Assembly: GCA_002699585.1 (NCBI GenBank)
Contig: PABP01000033.1
Location: 80,920-122,111 of the forward strand
Direction: 5' to 3'
DNA: 41,192 bases
DNA from: Anaerolineaceae bacterium
Lineage (GTDB): Bacteria > Chloroflexota > Anaerolineae > Aggregatilineales > Phototrophicaceae
The position numbers were made by a program, and so were the translations under genes. Shown here in pieces: positions 20,973 through 41,192 of this stretch. Under the pieces are notes generated by a model. It was not told where the DNA came from. It saw only the letters and a program-made list of their open reading frames with translations, and did not search any database. Each line of letters starts with the position of its first letter. The first letter of the stretch is position 1.

Positions 20973-22214
20973 TTAATACTTGGGTAGGCTGGGGTCGATC
21001 TCGTCGGCCCAGGCCAGGATACCACCCGTGACGTTGAACATCTTGTCATTGTCGTAACCCACTTCGCGCAGGAAGTTGATGGTATCGGCGCTGCGTTTGC
21101 CGCTGCGGCAGTGGATCATCAGTACCTTATCCTGTGGAATCTGATCCAGCACGGTTTCGTTTGCCAGCTTGCGACCAGCGATCACGGCATTTTTCGCAGC
21201 CTGAATGTCGCCTTTAGGGATGCGTACCGTACCATCGATAGCAGCGATTTCCCATTCGTGGGGTTCACGCACATCCAGCACGACAATATCCTCACTCGCA
21301 TCCAACTGGGCTTTCAAGTCGGCTACGCTGATTTCATGCATGCCCGCATAGTCATCTTCCCCAGCAAGACTGAACGAACTGTGATCGTGGGCCGGCATCC
21401 CGCAGAACTGTTCATAGTCAATCAACTCGACATCATCGGCGTGGATGCTGCAAACCGGGCAGTTGGGGTCTTTCCGTACCTTGATGGTGTTGAACTCCAT
21501 ATTGAGCGCATCGTAAAGCAGCATACGACCAATCATCGGTTCGCCAATACCCAGGATGAGCTTGATTGTTTCCGTGGCCTGCATGGTGCCAACGGTGCCA
21601 GGAAGAATACCCAGGACGCCACCTTCAGCGCAGCTTGGGACCAACCCGGGTGGGGGCGGCTCTGGGAACATGCAGCGGTAGCACGGGCCTTCTTTAGCGT
21701 AGAACACGCTGAGTTGGCCCTCAAAACGAAAGATGCTGCCGTACACGTTCGGCTTGCCCAGTTTGACACAGGCATCATTGACCAGATAGCGTGTCGGGAA
21801 GTTGTCCGTGCCGTCGACGATGACATCATACGGCTCGAACAGCTCCAGCGCATTGTCTGATGTCAGCGGCACGTTGTATTTGTCGATCTGAATATCCGGG
21901 TTGAGGTCGCGCAGGCGCTTTTCAGCGCTATCGACTTTGCGGATGCCGACGGTGCTGGTCCCGTGAATGACCTGACGCTGCAAGTTGCTCTCGTCAACCA
22001 CATCATAGTCGACCAAGCCCATACGACCTATACCGGCGGCTGCCAGGTAAAGGGCTGTCGGACTGCCCAGGCCACCCGTGCCGATTAGCAGCACACTGGC
22101 CGCTTTGAGCTTTTGCTGGCCGCCAATGCCGACTTCGGGCATGATGATATGGCGACTGTAACGCTGGACTTCTTCATGCGACAGTTCTACTTGTCTGTCG
22201 ATTAATGCGTGCAT
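20973..22214 (-). CDS. moeZ: MoeB/ThiF-type sulfur-carrier adenylyltransferase fused to rhodanese (MoeZ/Uba4-like)
   Basis: A 413-residue E1-like enzyme. The nucleotide site is IGTGGLGSPTALYLAAAG (residues 44-61). A zinc site is formed by CYRCMF and CPVC. The E1-type Cys lies in VPSCAEGGVLG (Cys195), as in Uba4/MOCS3. The C-terminal ~110 residues are a rhodanese domain with catalytic Cys369 in HCRSGKRS. Such enzymes adenylate the C-terminal glycine of a ubiquitin-like carrier and convert it to a thiocarboxylate. The carrier is probably the 90-residue protein encoded upstream (23689-23961). Ribosome binding site GAGGGAA precedes ATG 22214. It is the last gene of the cluster. Confidence 0.92.
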   Translation of the reverse strand: MHALIDRQVELSHEEVQRYSRHIIMPEVGIGGQQKLKAASVLLIGTGGLGSPTALYLAAAGIGRMGLVDYDVVDESNLQRQVIHGTSTVGIRKVDSAEKRLRDLNPDIQIDKYNVPLTSDNALELFEPYDVIVDGTDNFPTRYLVNDACVKLGKPNVYGSIFRFEGQLSVFYAKEGPCYRCMFPEPPPPGLVPSCAEGGVLGILPGTVGTMQATETIKLILGIGEPMIGRMLLYDALNMEFNTIKVRKDPNCPVCSIHADDVELIDYEQFCGMPAHDHSSFSLAGEDDYAGMHEISVADLKAQLDASEDIVVLDVREPHEWEIAAIDGTVRIPKGDIQAAKNAVIAGRKLANETVLDQIPQDKVLMIHCRSGKRSADTINFLREVGYDNDKMFNVTGGILAWADEIDPSLPKY

Positions 22215-22254: not shown

Positions 22255-22662
22255 CTATACGGCAATATCGAGCTGCTGGCGGAGCTTGTTCTCGTCAGCG
22301 AACCCATAGTTGACGGCCTTTGCTTGGCCGCTTTGGTCGAGCACAAAGGTAGTGGGTGCGCTCATGACGCCCCATCGTTGGGCTGTATCCGGGTCCAGGC
22401 TGGCATCCACCTTGATGATGTTCACGGTGTCACCGATGGCCGCTTGCAGCCGTGACAGAGCGGGTTGCTGCTGTGTCTGGCAGGGAATGCAACCGGGTGT
22501 CGTGAAGTAAACAATGGTCGCGCGGTCGGCGGGTACGGCGTTTAGCAGGGGATCACGTGTGGCTTGTTCACTCGCTTGTTGCAGATTTCGCCGTTTGAAC
22601 AGCAAGAATCCGACATAGCCAATCCCTAGCAGAATAGCCATTAAAATCAGGCGTTCGATCAT
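22255..22662 (-). CDS. Membrane-anchored thioredoxin-like protein
   Basis: A 135-residue protein with an N-terminal membrane anchor (LILMAILLGIGYVGFLLF) followed by basic residues and a thioredoxin domain. The active site is FTTPGCIPCQTQQQP (CxxC with Ile-Pro), and the cis-Pro loop is VMSAPTTFVL. The redox domain most likely faces the cytoplasm if the basic KRR stretch sits inside, though the reverse topology is possible. Its ATG overlaps the stop of the DUF4395 gene by four bases, so the two are coupled and probably work together. In this setting it may reduce sulfur-transfer or persulfide intermediates (inference). Confidence 0.88.
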   Translation of the reverse strand: MIERLILMAILLGIGYVGFLLFKRRNLQQASEQATRDPLLNAVPADRATIVYFTTPGCIPCQTQQQPALSRLQAAIGDTVNIIKVDASLDPDTAQRWGVMSAPTTFVLDQSGQAKAVNYGFADENKLRQQLDIAV

Positions 22663-23120
22663 GATGCGTTCTCCTGAAGGGGTGAGGCGTCAAAGCCAGG
22701 GATGCCCAGTCGATTGAACTGGTAGTACATCCAGCAGCCCATGCAGAAGTTCAACCAGAAGTTAAGGTTTGCCAGGGCGATGACGATCCATACAAGTATC
22801 CAGGCCACTAAGGGTGCCCCTGCCAGTAGGGCAACAGTCGCAGCACCGTTGAAAATCGCGCCGACGAGCATGGCGAAACGGTGCGGCTGCGGGTTATCCG
22901 CTTCTACACGGGGTTTGACGATGCCACTTGGCAGCACGAGGTGCTTATAAATGAGGCGATATGGCGCAAACGATGCGCCTAATGCGCCGAGCAGTTGGCT
23001 GATAGCAACGAAGGCCACCAGCAGCCAGCTTTCCAAAAGGAAGGCGAGCAGCAGTACGATGATGGTAATGGCTTGGCCCGATTTCAGGCCATTTTGATCG
23101 AGCTTTGTTGATGTTGTCAT
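22659..23120 (-). CDS. DUF4395 membrane protein
   Basis: A 153-residue protein with about four membrane segments and the DUF4395 signature: QNGLKSGQ at the N-terminus, the polar loop RVEADNPQPHRFA, and the C-terminal segment LNFWLNFCMGCWMYY with two conserved Cys. The family has no established function. In Actinobacteria members often lie beside thioredoxins and sulfurtransferases (from memory). Here it is translationally coupled to the thioredoxin, so the CMGC pair is a likely redox partner (inference). Confidence 0.85.
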   Translation of the reverse strand: MTTSTKLDQNGLKSGQAITIIVLLLAFLLESWLLVAFVAISQLLGALGASFAPYRLIYKHLVLPSGIVKPRVEADNPQPHRFAMLVGAIFNGAATVALLAGAPLVAWILVWIVIALANLNFWLNFCMGCWMYYQFNRLGIPGFDASPLQENAS

Positions 23121-23168: not shown

Positions 23169-23684
23169 CTAGCCTGGGATCGTGTCCAGGTCATAGCCAA
23201 AGGCGATTTCCGCCAGTTCAACGCCACCGACATGGAACGTCAGTGTTTCTTTAATCAGAACACCCCCCATACGCTCATAAAATCCGCGCGCAGGTAGGTT
23301 GTCTTCCAGCACCCAAATCAACATCGTTTGAAAGCCACGATCTCTCAACTCCTTCATCGCTGAGTGAACTAACGCCTTGCCAATACCTTTGCCCTGGTGT
23401 GCTTGCAAAATGTACAGGGCGTAGATTTCACTATCATATTGCTTGACCTGATCGCGCTCCGGGCCACTGACGGCGAAACCAACGATTTCATCGCCGATAA
23501 GTGCAACCTCATTCAGATTGCGATGGTTATTGATGCTGCGCTGCCATTGCGCCGTCCGTGCCTCAATGCTCAGGCTCGCCAGGGTCTCATCCGGTATGAT
23601 GCCTGCGTACGCCGTCTGCCATGAACTCACATGGACTTTGGCGATTTGCGGGGCATCTTCCAGTACAGCCCTGCGGATCAGCAT
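23169..23684 (-). CDS. GNAT family N-acetyltransferase (RimI-like)
   Basis: A 171-residue acetyltransferase. Features are the N-terminal strand/helix MLIRRAVLEDAPQIAKVH, the acetyl-CoA loop AHQGKGIGKALVHSAM and the C-terminal NLPARGFYERMGG. The SSWQTAYAGIIPDE segment is common in bacterial GNATs of the RimI/YhbS type. The ATG lies 4 nt after the sulfur-carrier stop codon, so it is co-transcribed with that gene. The acceptor substrate is unknown. Confidence 0.88.
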   Translation of the reverse strand: MLIRRAVLEDAPQIAKVHVSSWQTAYAGIIPDETLASLSIEARTAQWQRSINNHRNLNEVALIGDEIVGFAVSGPERDQVKQYDSEIYALYILQAHQGKGIGKALVHSAMKELRDRGFQTMLIWVLEDNLPARGFYERMGGVLIKETLTFHVGGVELAEIAFGYDLDTIPG

Positions 23685-23688
23685 CTAC

Positions 23689-23961
23689 TTAGCGGCCCCC
23701 GGCAATACTCGGGATGATGCGCAAATTCGCATCGTCATCAATTTCAGTATCTGTGCCATCCATAAAACGAATATCTTCGTCGTCGATGAATACGTTGACG
23801 AAGCTGCGCAGCTTGTCATTCTGGAACAGGTGCTGCTGTAAATCAGGATACTGGTTGACCAGGTCGTTTAGTGCCTCGCCAACTGTGCCCCCACTGACCG
23901 AGACTTTAGCTTCGTCACCGGTATAAACACGAAGCGGAGTCGGAATTCTGATGCTTGCCAT
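23689..23961 (-). CDS. Ubiquitin-like sulfur carrier (CysO/MoaD-like) ending Gly-Gly-Arg
   Basis: A 90-residue beta-grasp protein. It matches mycobacterial CysO in layout: RIPTPLRVYTGD, SGGTVGEALNDL, RSFVNVFIDDEDIRF, and the C-terminal RIIPSIAGGR. In CysO, MoaD and ThiS the protein ends exactly at Gly-Gly, which is adenylated and thiocarboxylated. Here an extra Arg90 follows Gly88-Gly89. A JAMM protease is encoded just upstream and could trim it. AGGAG lies 8 nt before ATG 23961. The E1-like enzyme for activation is encoded three genes downstream (20973-22214). Confidence 0.87.
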   Translation of the reverse strand: MASIRIPTPLRVYTGDEAKVSVSGGTVGEALNDLVNQYPDLQQHLFQNDKLRSFVNVFIDDEDIRFMDGTDTEIDDDANLRIIPSIAGGR

Positions 23962-24059: not shown

Positions 24060-24488
24060 TTATGGCTGGACGACCAACTCCTGCGCGTCGAATGCACTGC
24101 GATCATCTCGCAGCAGCCAGACGAGCATCTCGACAGCCTTACCGGACATCACCGACGAGATGATGTACACGAAATTGGGTAGGGCATGGACCCGGTCATA
24201 TTCTGATGGAATTGCGGGTGAATCAGGATGGCTATGATAATAGCCAACCAGCGTAAGTCCGCGGTCATCAGCCGTGTCTTCCATATCCGCCCAATTTTTG
24301 GGGGACATAGCATAACGATGATACTGTTCTTCTGTTTCGAAAGTATTTTCTATCTGGATGACATCCACAATGGAAACGGTGTCGCCCGACTTGCTGCCGA
24401 GTAAAAAGCCGCCGCCTTCATTAGGGAATGTGCCTTCCATCTGTTTGAAAATGTCTTGCTGTAATGCCTTGCTGAGTTCGATTTTCAT
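24060..24488 (-). CDS. JAMM/MPN metalloprotease (Mec-like)
   Basis: A 142-residue zinc peptidase. The full JAMM motif is present: Glu24 in FPNEGGGFLLG, then H85-S-H87 followed by Ser95 and Asp98 (HxHx7Sx2D). In Mycobacterium the homologue Mec cleaves cysteine from the CysO-cysteine adduct; other JAMM proteins (QbsD) remove extra residues behind a Gly-Gly. The carrier encoded 98 nt downstream (23689-23961) has such an extra residue. It is the first gene of the cluster, preceded by a structured leader with an internal terminator (24489-24724). Confidence 0.9.
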   Translation of the reverse strand: MKIELSKALQQDIFKQMEGTFPNEGGGFLLGSKSGDTVSIVDVIQIENTFETEEQYHRYAMSPKNWADMEDTADDRGLTLVGYYHSHPDSPAIPSEYDRVHALPNFVYIISSVMSGKAVEMLVWLLRDDRSAFDAQELVVQP

Positions 24489-24724
24489 AGGGTTTCAGTC
24501 CCTGAGTTGGGTAAATCCGTACAACAAAAAAACCAGCCTGTCGGCTGGCGAAGTTCGCTCTTATGGACGCACTGTAAGTGTGAAGTTCTTACAGCGCAAA
24601 ACAGCCGACATGCAATGTACAAGTCATAAGACAACAACAGGTAGTCTGTTGTTGGTGCAGGGGTCGGCAAATACGTTCTCTACTCATGGTGGGATAAGCT
24701 AACATGTGCCTGTAATAATGTCAA
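24489..24724 (-). promoter_or_regulatory. Promoter and ~200-nt structured leader with terminator/antiterminator pair
   Basis: On the minus strand a promoter has TTGACA (24724-24719), a 17-nt spacer and TAGCTT (24701-24696), giving a start near 24689. The leader holds a perfect 9-bp hairpin (24654-24646/24640-24632), a 10-bp hairpin with one wobble (24597-24588/24578-24569), and an intrinsic terminator. A segment GUCGGCUG (24609-24602) is an exact 8-base complement of CAGCCGAC (24547-24540) in the terminator's 5' arm and loop, so an antiterminator can form instead. No T-box (AGGGUGGNACC) or SAM-riboswitch core is visible. This layout is typical of a riboswitch or attenuator controlling the genes below. 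Confidence 0.65.
24526..24549 (-). terminator. Intrinsic terminator inside the JAMM-cluster leader
   Basis: Minus-strand stem CCAGCC/GGCUGG (24548-24543 with 24538-24533), tetraloop GACA and seven U residues (24532-24526). It lies 37 nt before the JAMM start codon, so it must be read through for expression. Confidence 0.85.
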
Positions 24725-27483: not shown

Positions 27484-28182
27484 ATGGCAATCAGGCCATT
27501 TCGCATTGTTGGGCGCAGTCAGTTCCGTCCCTATGCGACGTTTGGTATCCTCATCCTCAGTCTCCTGTTCTTTGTCTGGGAGATTATTATCACATCTGCG
27601 AATGGCTTGCCCATTGAGCAATTGTACGATCATTACACCCTCGTTACCTGCCATGTCGGGCACGTTCCCCTGACTGAAATCATCATTGATGGGGTGCGCA
27701 GTCTATTCCTCCATTTGACATTCCTGGAACTCGTCACCAATATGCTGTTCCTGTGGGTCTTTGGCCCGGCTGTAGAGCAGTTCCTGGGGCATCGCCGTTA
27801 CCTGGCCTTCTACATTGCGGTTGGCTTTGGTGGGCATCTGGCGAGCATCCTGTTTAGTGGAGGCAACTGTGCCGCGCTTGCTGGTTCCAGTGGGTCGGTT
27901 GCGGGTGTTCTGGCTGCTTTCTTGTTCCTGTACCCACTGCGACGTGTAGAAGCCTTTGTGCCGATGCTAGGACGCGGCTTCAGCATCCCGGCTTTCCTTT
28001 ATATCCTGATCTTCATCGGTGCGGCCTTCCTGATGGATGATGGCGGTCCGCTGTCTGGTAATCTGGCACCGTTCTGGGATGAAATCGGTGGGTTTGTTAG
28101 CGGCTTTGTCATCTTCTTTGTGGTGACGCTCTTTAAAGCTGCACCGAAAGCCAATCCGTTCCCAACCCTGGATGACGACTAA
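27484..28182 (+). CDS. Rhomboid-fold membrane protein lacking the catalytic histidine
   Basis: A 232-residue protein with six membrane segments and the rhomboid fold. The serine motif is intact (GSSGSVAG, Ser136), but the TM6 position where other rhomboids have His reads WDEIGGFVSG (Glu200). The upstream HxxxxHxxxN motif is also changed (HLTFLELVTN lacks the second His). It is therefore probably a pseudo-protease, which in the iRhom class binds and routes membrane clients; that role here is inference. A Cys follows TM1 (VTCHVGH) and another lies before TM4 (GGNCAAL). The tail ends NPFPTLDDD. Ribosome binding site AGAGGG precedes the ATG. It is the first of three tandem paralogues. Confidence 0.88.
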   Translation: MAIRPFRIVGRSQFRPYATFGILILSLLFFVWEIIITSANGLPIEQLYDHYTLVTCHVGHVPLTEIIIDGVRSLFLHLTFLELVTNMLFLWVFGPAVEQFLGHRRYLAFYIAVGFGGHLASILFSGGNCAALAGSSGSVAGVLAAFLFLYPLRRVEAFVPMLGRGFSIPAFLYILIFIGAAFLMDDGGPLSGNLAPFWDEIGGFVSGFVIFFVVTLFKAAPKANPFPTLDDD

Positions 28183-28233
28183 TAGACTTGTAAACCATGA
28201 ATCGGACACTAGCCCTTAAGGTGTAAGTAGACG

Positions 28234-28980
28234 ATGCTCCCGATTGGAACCCTGGGCCGCAACAAATATCGGCCATACATCACGTTTTTCCTGATAGTGA
28301 TTAACCTGCTCGTGTTTGTGTATCAAGTCATTGTGCAAACACAGGGCGCTGATAGTTACCTCAGCTTCCTGTACAGCAATGCACTCGATATGTGTAGCGT
28401 GGGCGTCGCCCCCGTTGGCACAGTCGTACGCAATGGCCTGTTTAGTCTGTTCCTGCATGGGAACATCCCGCATGTGGTTTTCAACATGGTCTTCTTGTGG
28501 ATCTTCGGTCCACATGTAGAAATGTACCTGGGCCATCGTGCCTTCCTGGGCTTCTATCTGGTTGCCGGGTACGTCGCCAGCTTCTCGCAGGTGGTCCTGG
28601 GTAGCTTCGTGTGTTCACCAGCCATGGTAGAAGGCCAATCCCTGCTGATCGGTGCCAGTGGTGCGATTGCTGGTGTGATGGGAGCCTTCCTGCTGCTGAA
28701 CCCCAATGCCAAGGTTCGTACTCTGATGCTGTTCAACATTCCCTTTATTCGGGTACTGCGTGGTATCATGATCCCCTACAAGATTTCTTATGTGCCTGCC
28801 GGGTTCTTCCTTGTATTCTGGGTGTTGAATGACATCGTGATGGCCATCTTTGGCTCCGGTGGCAACACGGCCCATTGGGCGCATATCGGCGGGTTTGTCG
28901 GCGGCGCGATTATTCTCTTTGTCGTGACCATGTTTAAGCCCGTTCCGGCAGTGAATCCATTCCCGGAACTCGATGACTAG
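28234..28980 (+). CDS. Rhomboid intramembrane serine protease (paralogue 2)
   Basis: A 248-residue rhomboid with the full catalytic set: HGNIPHVVFNMVFLWIFG, GASGAIAG (Ser142) and AHWAHIGGFVGG (His217). Such proteases cleave membrane proteins within or next to their transmembrane helix. Cys residues after TM1 (DMCSVGV) and before TM4 (GSFVCSPA) match those of the two neighbours. The soluble tail ends VNPFPELDD. It starts 51 nt after paralogue 1 with AAGGTG as ribosome binding site. Confidence 0.93.
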   Translation: MLPIGTLGRNKYRPYITFFLIVINLLVFVYQVIVQTQGADSYLSFLYSNALDMCSVGVAPVGTVVRNGLFSLFLHGNIPHVVFNMVFLWIFGPHVEMYLGHRAFLGFYLVAGYVASFSQVVLGSFVCSPAMVEGQSLLIGASGAIAGVMGAFLLLNPNAKVRTLMLFNIPFIRVLRGIMIPYKISYVPAGFFLVFWVLNDIVMAIFGSGGNTAHWAHIGGFVGGAIILFVVTMFKPVPAVNPFPELDD

Positions 28981-29024
28981 AAGCATTACCTGATTGAATC
29001 AGTCGTTAGTTAGAGGTTTTTCGT

Positions 29025-29744
29025 ATGCTACCTATCGGTGTGATCGGCAAAGATAAGAGCAAGTCGTATGTGACGTATGGCTTGATTGTCGTCAATATCC
29101 TCGTTTTTATCTGGGAGCTTTCTGTACAGTCGAAAGGCGTTTTTGCCTTCCAGGCAGCGCTGGGTGAAGTCGCGTTCAATGTCTGCCGCGTGGGCATTGA
29201 TCCGCTGCCAAACCTGTTTGTAGACAGCTTCCGTACCATGTTCTTACATGGCAGCCTGCTGCACCTGATCGGTAATATGCTCTACCTGTGGATTTTCGGT
29301 CGGCGCGTAGAGGCCTATTTCGGTAGCTGGAAATATCTGGTGTTCTATATTGCAGCCGGATCATTCGCGACACTGGGCCATGTGCTTTTTGGTGGCGTCG
29401 TTTGCCGCACTGCCACTGAACTCAAGATTGTCATTGGCGCCAGCGGTGCTATCGCTGGTGTGATGGGCGGCTTCTTGATGCTGTACCCAACCGCACGGGT
29501 CAAAACCCTAATTGGTTTCTTCCAACCGCTTTTCTGGCAGGTGAAGCTCCCGGCTGTGTTGTTCCTGGGCTACTGGTTCATCATGGACTTGTTGCAGGGC
29601 GTTGGTTGGCTGGGTGTGAATACGTCAACAGCCCACTGGGCGCATATCGGCGGCTTTGTCTCCGGTGTGGTCATGGTCTTCCTGGCGACTATGCTGTATA
29701 AACCTGCACCCAAACCCGATCCATTCGAGTATCTTGACGACTAG
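29025..29744 (+). CDS. Rhomboid intramembrane serine protease (paralogue 3)
   Basis: A 239-residue rhomboid with intact catalysis: HGSLLHLIGNMLYLWIFG, GASGAIAG (Ser140), and AHWAHIGGFVSG (His207). The two Cys (NVCRVGI and GGVVCRTA) and the tail (PKPDPFEYLDD) are shared with the other paralogues. It starts 44 nt after paralogue 2 with AGAGG as ribosome binding site, so all three are likely one transcript, closed by the terminator at 29771. Confidence 0.93.
   Translation: MLPIGVIGKDKSKSYVTYGLIVVNILVFIWELSVQSKGVFAFQAALGEVAFNVCRVGIDPLPNLFVDSFRTMFLHGSLLHLIGNMLYLWIFGRRVEAYFGSWKYLVFYIAAGSFATLGHVLFGGVVCRTATELKIVIGASGAIAGVMGGFLMLYPTARVKTLIGFFQPLFWQVKLPAVLFLGYWFIMDLLQGVGWLGVNTSTAHWAHIGGFVSGVVMVFLATMLYKPAPKPDPFEYLDD

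Positions 29745-40362: not shown

Positions 40363-41192
<830 letters not shown>

Follow-up and report, generated by a model that had tools for sequence, protein, structure and literature searches.

The window, by which we mean the whole stretch of 41,192 nucleotides that was analysed, carries a gene cluster on the minus strand whose first member encodes a JAMM (Prok-JAB) protein (24060-24488; PF14464, 8e-22; PDB 2kcq, 3e-20). All NCBIfam matches of this protein were below cut-off, and by analogy it may be Mec-like. The next gene encodes a ubiquitin-like, CysO-like sulfur carrier (23689-23961; PF02597, 1e-10; PDB 3dwg_C, 1e-16), which is ThiS-like and scored over the cut-off of the SAMP1 model (7e-17). 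We take PDB 3dwg_C to be CysO as it occurs in the mycobacterial complex with CysM. Behind the carrier gene lie genes for a GNAT acetyltransferase (23169-23684; PF00583, 4e-19), a DUF4395 protein (22659-23120; PF14340, 7e-32), a thioredoxin-like protein (22255-22662; PF00085, 8e-10) and a MoeZ-like adenylyltransferase with a rhodanese domain (20973-22214; PF00899, 2e-83; PF00581, 8e-12; MoeB/MoeZ models). In Mycobacterium tuberculosis, the CysO/CysM/Mec/MoeZ pathway to cysteine consists of a JAMM protein, a ubiquitin-like carrier, a MoeZ-like activator and a CysM-type synthase, and by its likeness to this pathway the gene set looks like one for cysteine biosynthesis. The JAMM-ubiquitin-like cluster named in the original prediction is a JAMM, ThiS/CysO-like and MoeZ-like set that resembles CysO-type cysteine synthesis.

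At its C-terminus the ubiquitin-like protein reads GGR, with a single residue after the GG, and the neighbouring JAMM peptidase could trim it. In several relatives, the first gene identified downstream of the JAMM gene encodes a two-domain rhodanese that resembles mercaptopyruvate sulfurtransferase, below the model cut-off (L098, L107, L114, L123, L144, L149, L152, L154, L159 and others), and this protein is a possible sulfur donor. Elsewhere on the plus strand of the window, three adjoining ORFs of 232, 248 and 239 aa were found at 27484-29744; two contain GASGAIAGV and the third a similar stretch. From this motif, they are presumably tandem rhomboid-type membrane proteins, and similar ORFs lie downstream in L112. 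Positions 40363-41192 (plus strand) hold the first part of a 16S rRNA gene that is cut by the end of the window.

Promoter, open reading frame and pairing regions of the leader

The minus-strand promoter ahead of the JAMM gene consists of a perfect -35 hexamer, TTGACA (24719-24724), and an extended -10 element, TGT TAGCTT (24696-24704), that ends 8 nt above the ATG of a short ORF. The original prediction had called this promoter good; beside the perfect -35 hexamer, it has a 17-nt spacer and a TG extension, but the -10 hexamer itself (TAGCTT, 24701-24696) is poor (3/6). The leader promoter was absent from the list given by a consensus promoter scan of the window. Over the whole window, 8 terminator-like sites were found versus 11.1 expected, and 12 promoter-like sites versus 12.7 expected.

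The short ORF (24589-24687, minus strand) encodes a peptide of 32 aa, MSRERICRPLHQQQTTCCCLMTCTLHVGCFAL, and occupies nearly the whole leader, a feature that the original prediction overlooked. Six of the 32 residues are Cys, and there is one inner Met. Three Cys codons are consecutive (codons 17-19, TGT TGT TGT, 24631-24639) and form the predicted stall site; the others are codons 7, 23 and 29. The ATG is placed approximately where transcription should begin, and from this promoter spacing the ORF is predicted to be leaderless. An upstream in-frame ATG at 24705 was rejected as the start, since it shares bases with the TG of the extended -10 and would precede the predicted start site.

Several segments of the leader can pair with one another. 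Region 2, GTCGGCTG (24602-24609), covers leader codons 27-29, of which codons 27-28 read GTCGGC, and lies 10 nt above the stop codon (24591-24589). It is an exact complement of region 3, CAGCCGAC (24540-24547), which belongs to the 5' arm and loop of an intrinsic terminator, GCCAGCC-GACA-GGCTGGT with a T-run (24526-24549; stem 24549-24532). Between the end of the T-run (24526) and the JAMM ATG (24488) there are 37 nt. The 8-base complementarity and the terminator 37 nt before the first gene agree with the original prediction in both position and sequence. In a fold of 24690-24590, region 2 can also pair with region 1, GCCGAC (24663-24668), a previously overlooked repeat of the pairing unit in the first part of the ORF. 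With an ORF whose end carries region 2 near the stop codon, an additional GCCGAC and a terminator, the leader has regions 1, 2, 3 and 4 of the trp type.

The two strong hairpins reported earlier were also found again (24654-24632 and 24597-24569). The central hairpin, GCGCTGTAAG/CTTACAGTGC (24597-24588 and 24578-24569), overlaps the leader stop codon and sits within the antiterminator. The other hairpin, CAACAACAG/CTGTTGTTG (24654-24646 and 24640-24632), includes most of the Cys codons. It was considered as an essential part and rejected; by eye, it is missing from the sequence of the sister genome (G059), so it is probably dispensable. Directly before the JAMM ATG lies a 4-bp inverted repeat, AGGG-ACTGAAA-CCCT (24489-24503), which could shield the likely Shine-Dalgarno sequence of the JAMM gene and so add translation control.

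Recurrence of the leader and of its pairing in relatives

Among relatives that carry a name, the nearest are MAGs whose labels read Chloroflexi, Anaerolineae, Phototrophicales or Aggregatilineales and, in a few cases, something else. The JAMM protein was present in 91 of 98 family genomes and in 21 of 24 genera. Upstream DNA was taken from 90 genomes; the 91st match (G019) was left out because it begins at a contig end. We then searched the 200 nt upstream of the JAMM gene for a short ORF that begins with ATG and holds 3 or more Cys within 10 residues, using 87 of the 90 leaders after three with less than 260 nt upstream had been dropped. Such an ORF was found in 71 of the 87 leaders, and in 48 of them it had at least 4 Cys. 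On the reverse strand of the same stretch, the counts were 2/87 and 1/87, respectively. Dinucleotide shuffles gave 243/3480 (7.0%) for at least 3 Cys and 0.8% for at least 4, and other 200-nt windows of named loci gave 62/2618 (2.4%) and 11/2618. The frame richest in Cys was taken as the uORF, in the controls as in the leaders, so the lists of peptides are selected ones; for 5 to 6 leaders the frame was set by hand.

At least one Cys-rich leader was found in 16 of the 20 genera examined, and three more genera had two Cys only. Outside the Cys clusters, the leader peptides vary widely in the family. The sister genome has MNAKRLFSTCCCMTVCRVQIGCFAL, and further relatives have MVNCKATHSAKTGCLCCCSKRLRNIWRVGISAD or MSRNFVYSTPKMMCMSCMPMTMAMCCVTLNNDGVRSR. 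Four relatives (G001, G020, G032 and G063) lacked a Cys ORF before the JAMM gene; in G009, which scored zero in the 200 nt, the leader is placed further up.

The promoter spacing recurs as well. In 72 of 84 leader frames, TGnTAnnnT ends about 8 nt upstream of an in-frame ATG, and in 68 of the 84 the extended -10 was accompanied by TTGA or TTGC about 37 nt above the leader ATG. None of the 72 leaderless-spaced ATGs had a Shine-Dalgarno-like run above it. In the control, TGnTAnnnT stood at that spacing before 64 of 37422 ATGs; the contrast is somewhat overstated, at most by the number of ATGs per frame, since the frames hold several ATGs while the control ATGs were counted singly. A terminator hairpin with a T-run followed the leader in 84 of 88 family leaders (G011 and G020 had no candidate ORF, hence 88), compared with 6 of 2200 shuffles that reached a terminator score of -15 or better. 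The four leaders in which no terminator was found were those of G001, G032, G034 and G063.

The 84 leaders with a terminator were used for tests of the switch. In the sequestration test, the 5' arm of the terminator was allowed to pair with upstream RNA while the 3' arm was still unmade. In the window leader, the sequestration gain was 9.9 kcal/mol with the ribosome at the first clustered Cys codon, versus 2.0 with the ribosome on the stop codon; shuffled sequence gave 3.5, and 0 of 30 shuffles were as good. The sister leader behaved similarly (10.6 kcal/mol stalled, 1.9 at the stop and 4.2 shuffled; 0/30 shuffles). The family means were 6.3, 2.5 and 4.5 kcal/mol, respectively (n = 84; stalled versus shuffled, Wilcoxon p = 2.6e-6). 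The stalled gain exceeded the gain at the stop codon by more than 0.5 in 68 of the 84 leaders, and sequestration was above the leader's own shuffled mean in 55 and not above it in 29.

We also tested regions 2 and 3 directly, by scoring how well the end of the ORF complements, without gaps, the terminator arm and its loop. No shuffle out of 100 came up to the complementarity of the window leader, and among foreign terminator arms the fraction that did was 0.01. Across the family, it beat shuffles at p <= 0.05 in 24 of 84 leaders, where about 4 would be expected, and 60 leaders failed; the leader's own arm likewise outdid foreign arms at 0.05 in 24 leaders, again with about 4 expected. The sister leader, in which the match is one pair shorter and contains a G-U, failed both tests (0.17 for shuffles and 0.28 for foreign arms). 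An earlier test by duplex energy was weaker, with a mean of -13.1 for own pairs, -11.3 for mismatched and -11.4 for shuffled ones, and 19 of 84 leaders at p <= 0.05.

It had been proposed to align related leaders and look for covariation in the 8-bp pairing, which is shown in part. RNAalifold recovered the antiterminator in a 6-genome subclade (z -2.8), with two pairs that had two Watson-Crick types each, but gave no consensus antiterminator in genus-wide alignments of 29, 14 and 13 sequences. Judged from sequence, we read the antiterminator as well supported in the window, energetically in the sister and statistically in the family. In the window and sister leaders, the terminator and the predicted alternative pairing are mutually exclusive, as originally proposed, with 0/100 and 0/30 shuffles as good as the window.

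A second leader before cysM and methionine codons in the leaders of metY operons

The genome has a cysM-like gene distant from the window (G000:C5:141520-142494), for which TIGR01138 was the best synthase model, just below cut-off. We found that this gene is also preceded by a Cys-rich leader, MAHYTQCCCCLETHR, and that its counterpart in the sister genome is preceded by MAFNTQCCCCLETIR. In both leaders, GGTAGTCC lies over the stop codon and its reverse complement, GGACTACC, follows 61-63 nt on. A pattern of four Cys codons had 109 matches on both strands of the genome versus 29 in the control, and the cysM leader was among the matches listed. The unlinked cysM-like cysteine synthase would be governed by its own, second poly-Cys leader.

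Upstream DNA of cysM was taken for 90 of 91 matches; G034 was left out, and G046 gave 14 nt. In 76 of the 90 family genomes, the upstream ORF had at least 3 Cys in 10, and in 64 it had at least 4. These leaders were found in 15 of 22 genera and carry as many as six consecutive Cys codons. A terminator-like hairpin followed 59 of the 76, a raw count without a null comparison, and complementarity over the stop codon reached p <= 0.05 in 20 of the 76 (4 expected).

Many genomes of a single genus, and several others, share CCCLK(R/Q)G(R/A) as the C-terminal end of the cysM leader peptide (L251-L340). One cysM-like match (G095:C7:11081-12025) contains a single in-frame TGA. In the sister genome, cysK (L205, G059:C1:1695242-1696102) also has a Cys-rich short ORF upstream, MLFCACCLCMCCEDSPPNGCGAMFGY. 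Between this ORF and cysK lie the two arms of an inverted repeat and a T-run (ACGAGCCAC...GTGGCTCGT TTTT). A Cys-rich leader before cysS was found in 0 of 6 genomes examined.

We compared 20 genomes of other families. By coordinates, 13 of them have a CysM-like gene immediately upstream of the JAMM gene. In the three genomes of the same order in which cysM and the JAMM gene are apart (G334, G217 and G365), a Cys-rich ORF precedes the JAMM gene in all three; the remaining 17 of the 20 had no convincing Cys-rich ORF at that place. The cysM upstreams of the 20 genomes had 3 Cys in 10 in seven cases, one of which (L346) is likely due to chance, and six more had, by eye, a short CxC with a basic tail. 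This distribution suggests an old cysM leader in the class and a later JAMM leader, which would have been gained in this order when a cysM-JAMM unit split.

In some genera, metY (TIGR01326) and metX lie between the JAMM gene and cysO; 24 of 80 named loci were looked at. The leaders of metY operons held a mean of 3.8 Met per 16-residue window (n = 26), versus 1.06 in other operons (n = 47). This count covered 73 of 81 loci, after those with fewer than 2 Cys in 10 aa or with neither metY nor moeZ reached had been dropped, and L156 and L169 by hand. Among metY-less leaders, the mean was 0.41 in operons of the CysO-MoeZ type (n = 32) and 2.47 in the 15 others, 8 of which had at least 3 Met. We also paired each JAMM leader with the cysM leader of its own genome wherever a matched genome and a cysM leader were at hand (20 of 26 metY loci and 32 of 47 others). 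In metY operons, the JAMM leader had more Met in 20 of 20 pairs (3.95 vs 0.6), with two of these loci sharing one cysM leader; in the other operons the means were 0.69 vs 0.88, and the JAMM leader had more in 6 and less in 15 of 32. Phylogeny weakens the association of Met with metY: phylogenetic contrasts gave r = 0.23 and a one-sided p = 0.026 over 6 metY changes. At E <= 1e-60, metY was found neither in the genome of the window nor in G042 and G057, whose leaders hold Met. By eye, no alternative methionine gene was seen among ORFs of at least 200 aa at five loci with Met-rich, metY-less leaders.

Interpretation and comparison with known systems

We read the leader as a trp-type attenuator of transcription that is mediated by the ribosome and would respond to cysteine through Cys-tRNA, and from the comparative sequence evidence we give this reading a probability of about 0.88. 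Transcription would start at or next to the leader ATG, so the ribosome is predicted to load without a Shine-Dalgarno sequence. When Cys-tRNA is plentiful, the ribosome would reach the stop codon (24591-24589) and cover region 2; arms 3 and 4 would then form the terminator, and transcription would end before the JAMM gene. When Cys-tRNA is scarce, the ribosome would wait at the Cys codons (24639-24631), region 2 would pair with region 3 as soon as the latter is made, and the terminator would be blocked. The jamm-cysO-gnat-DUF4395-trx-moeZ genes, probably one six-gene transcript, would be read through, and more cysteine would be made. The original prediction had left open an attenuator or a riboswitch. 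An attenuator is very likely, with the terminator recurring in relatives and the pairing recurring as a statistical excess. The sulfur signal that was originally suggested points in the right direction, but the carrier was wrong: it is likely the charging of tRNA-Cys, read by the ribosome, and not a metabolite bound by the RNA.

A riboswitch that binds cysteine, SAM, sulfide or the sulfur carrier, with the terminator as its expression platform, would also place an alternative pairing and a terminator before sulfur genes. We consider it very unlikely. An ORF with a run of Cys codons takes up nearly the whole leader, and such an ORF at a fixed place is the element that recurs; a Cys run also stands before the unlinked cysM-like gene, where the RNA context is another. 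Beyond the Cys codons, the promoter and the terminator, no conserved core was found, nor a genus-wide antiterminator consensus. At gathering scores, Rfam matched only 16S rRNA in the window and thus no riboswitch family, in keeping with the earlier remark that no T-box or SAM core was visible. Riboswitch and T-box were both rejected on this lack of an Rfam match and of a consensus fold in the larger alignments. An ORF that lies by chance over an ordinary terminator acting constitutively, or over the end of an upstream transcript, is scarcely credible. One leader alone would be weak evidence, and terminator-like and promoter-like sites are common in the window, but the order and spacing recur in 16 of 20 genera examined.

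Somewhat more weight, though still a small chance, goes to a leader that responds to cysteine mainly through translation of the first gene or through Rho, with the terminator secondary. The AGGG-ACTGAAA-CCCT repeat (24503-24489), which encloses the likely Shine-Dalgarno sequence of the JAMM gene, speaks for it. So do two mycobacterial precedents: according to the available part of PMC13236596, translation attenuation regulates the cysteine genes of M. smegmatis, and in that of PMC1262725 no conserved terminator was found in mycobacterial cys leaders, with Rho suggested. Against it stand the strong intrinsic terminator in 84/88 leaders versus 6/2200 shuffles and the fact that the 5' arm of this terminator is the partner of region 2. 

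A broader picture is offered tentatively, at slightly less than even odds for its parts taken together. There may be a regulon for sulfur amino acid synthesis, shared by Chloroflexota of this class, that is read by the ribosome through two unlinked poly-Cys leaders, the leaderless one of the JAMM-CysO-MoeZ unit and that of cysM, with codons that follow the genes governed. The leader of the JAMM unit may have been gained when an ancestral cysM-JAMM operon split. Cys codons alone would serve cysteine operons, while Cys with Met (MCMCMCC), where metY/metX have joined, would make a sensor of two sulfur amino acids. If the attenuator reading is true, leaderless translation, transcription attenuation and CysO-type cysteine synthesis would be tied together in a leader that recurs through most of a family, and the two natural leaders per genome would be built-in controls. 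The variants with Met and Cys would make it directly testable whether regulatory codons follow operon content.

In the open-licence PubMed Central literature, we found no description of a cysteine leader from Chloroflexota and, by title, no attenuator with both Met and Cys. Few cysteine attenuators were found in this literature, and uORFC-8-2 is one with Cys codons and a terminator. In the trp operon attenuator of enterobacteria, a leader peptide with regulatory codons is followed by regions that pair as 1:2, 2:3 and 3:4, and the terminator is avoided when the ribosome stalls. The his operon attenuator of enterobacteria, described in the available part of PMC9413887, is built alike. The leader described here shares with both the regulatory-codon leader peptide, the alternative pairings and the terminator, but it uses Cys codons, has a predicted leaderless start, belongs to another phylum and serves two unlinked units of one pathway.

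As far as the accessible text of PMC8632094 goes, uORFC-8-2 precedes cysS in Rhodobacterales and has two tandem Cys codons, two stems and an intrinsic terminator, with read-through by ribosome stalling as the proposed mechanism. Tandem Cys codons in a short ORF, the terminator and the stalling model are common to both systems. uORFC-8-2 is from Alphaproteobacteria and precedes cysS (PMC8632094, in part), whereas a JAMM gene with CysO-pathway genes follows here. Compared with the CysO pathway of M. tuberculosis, the JAMM protein, the sulfur carrier, the MoeZ-like protein and the CysM-type synthase are alike, with the functions here assigned by homology. Unlike in M. tuberculosis, the operon adds the GNAT, DUF4395 and thioredoxin genes, and cysM lies elsewhere in the genome.

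Mycobacterial poly-cysteine leaderless short ORFs reportedly form a cysteine-responsive attenuator, going by the title of Canestrari et al. 2020 (doi 10.1111/mmi.14498). Cys-rich leaders of mycobacteria are described in PMC13236596 and PMC9094748, both available in part, and the available portion of PMC1262725 describes Cys-rich leader peptides of cys operons in Actinobacteria, without conserved terminators and with Rho suggested. A short ORF with a Cys run before cysteine genes is shared with the leaders studied here, leaderless there and predicted leaderless here. The mycobacterial leaders act on translation, according to the accessible portion of PMC13236596, whereas here a terminator with an exclusive antiterminator would make a transcription attenuator; no conserved terminator was found for them in the available part of PMC1262725, compared with 84/88 in this study. 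The phylum, the first gene and the leader sequence all differ. What is new here is a predicted leaderless ORF of the poly-Cys kind that comes with a real terminator, in a phylum unlike those of the cases described in the literature consulted, and with a second leader on the same pathway.
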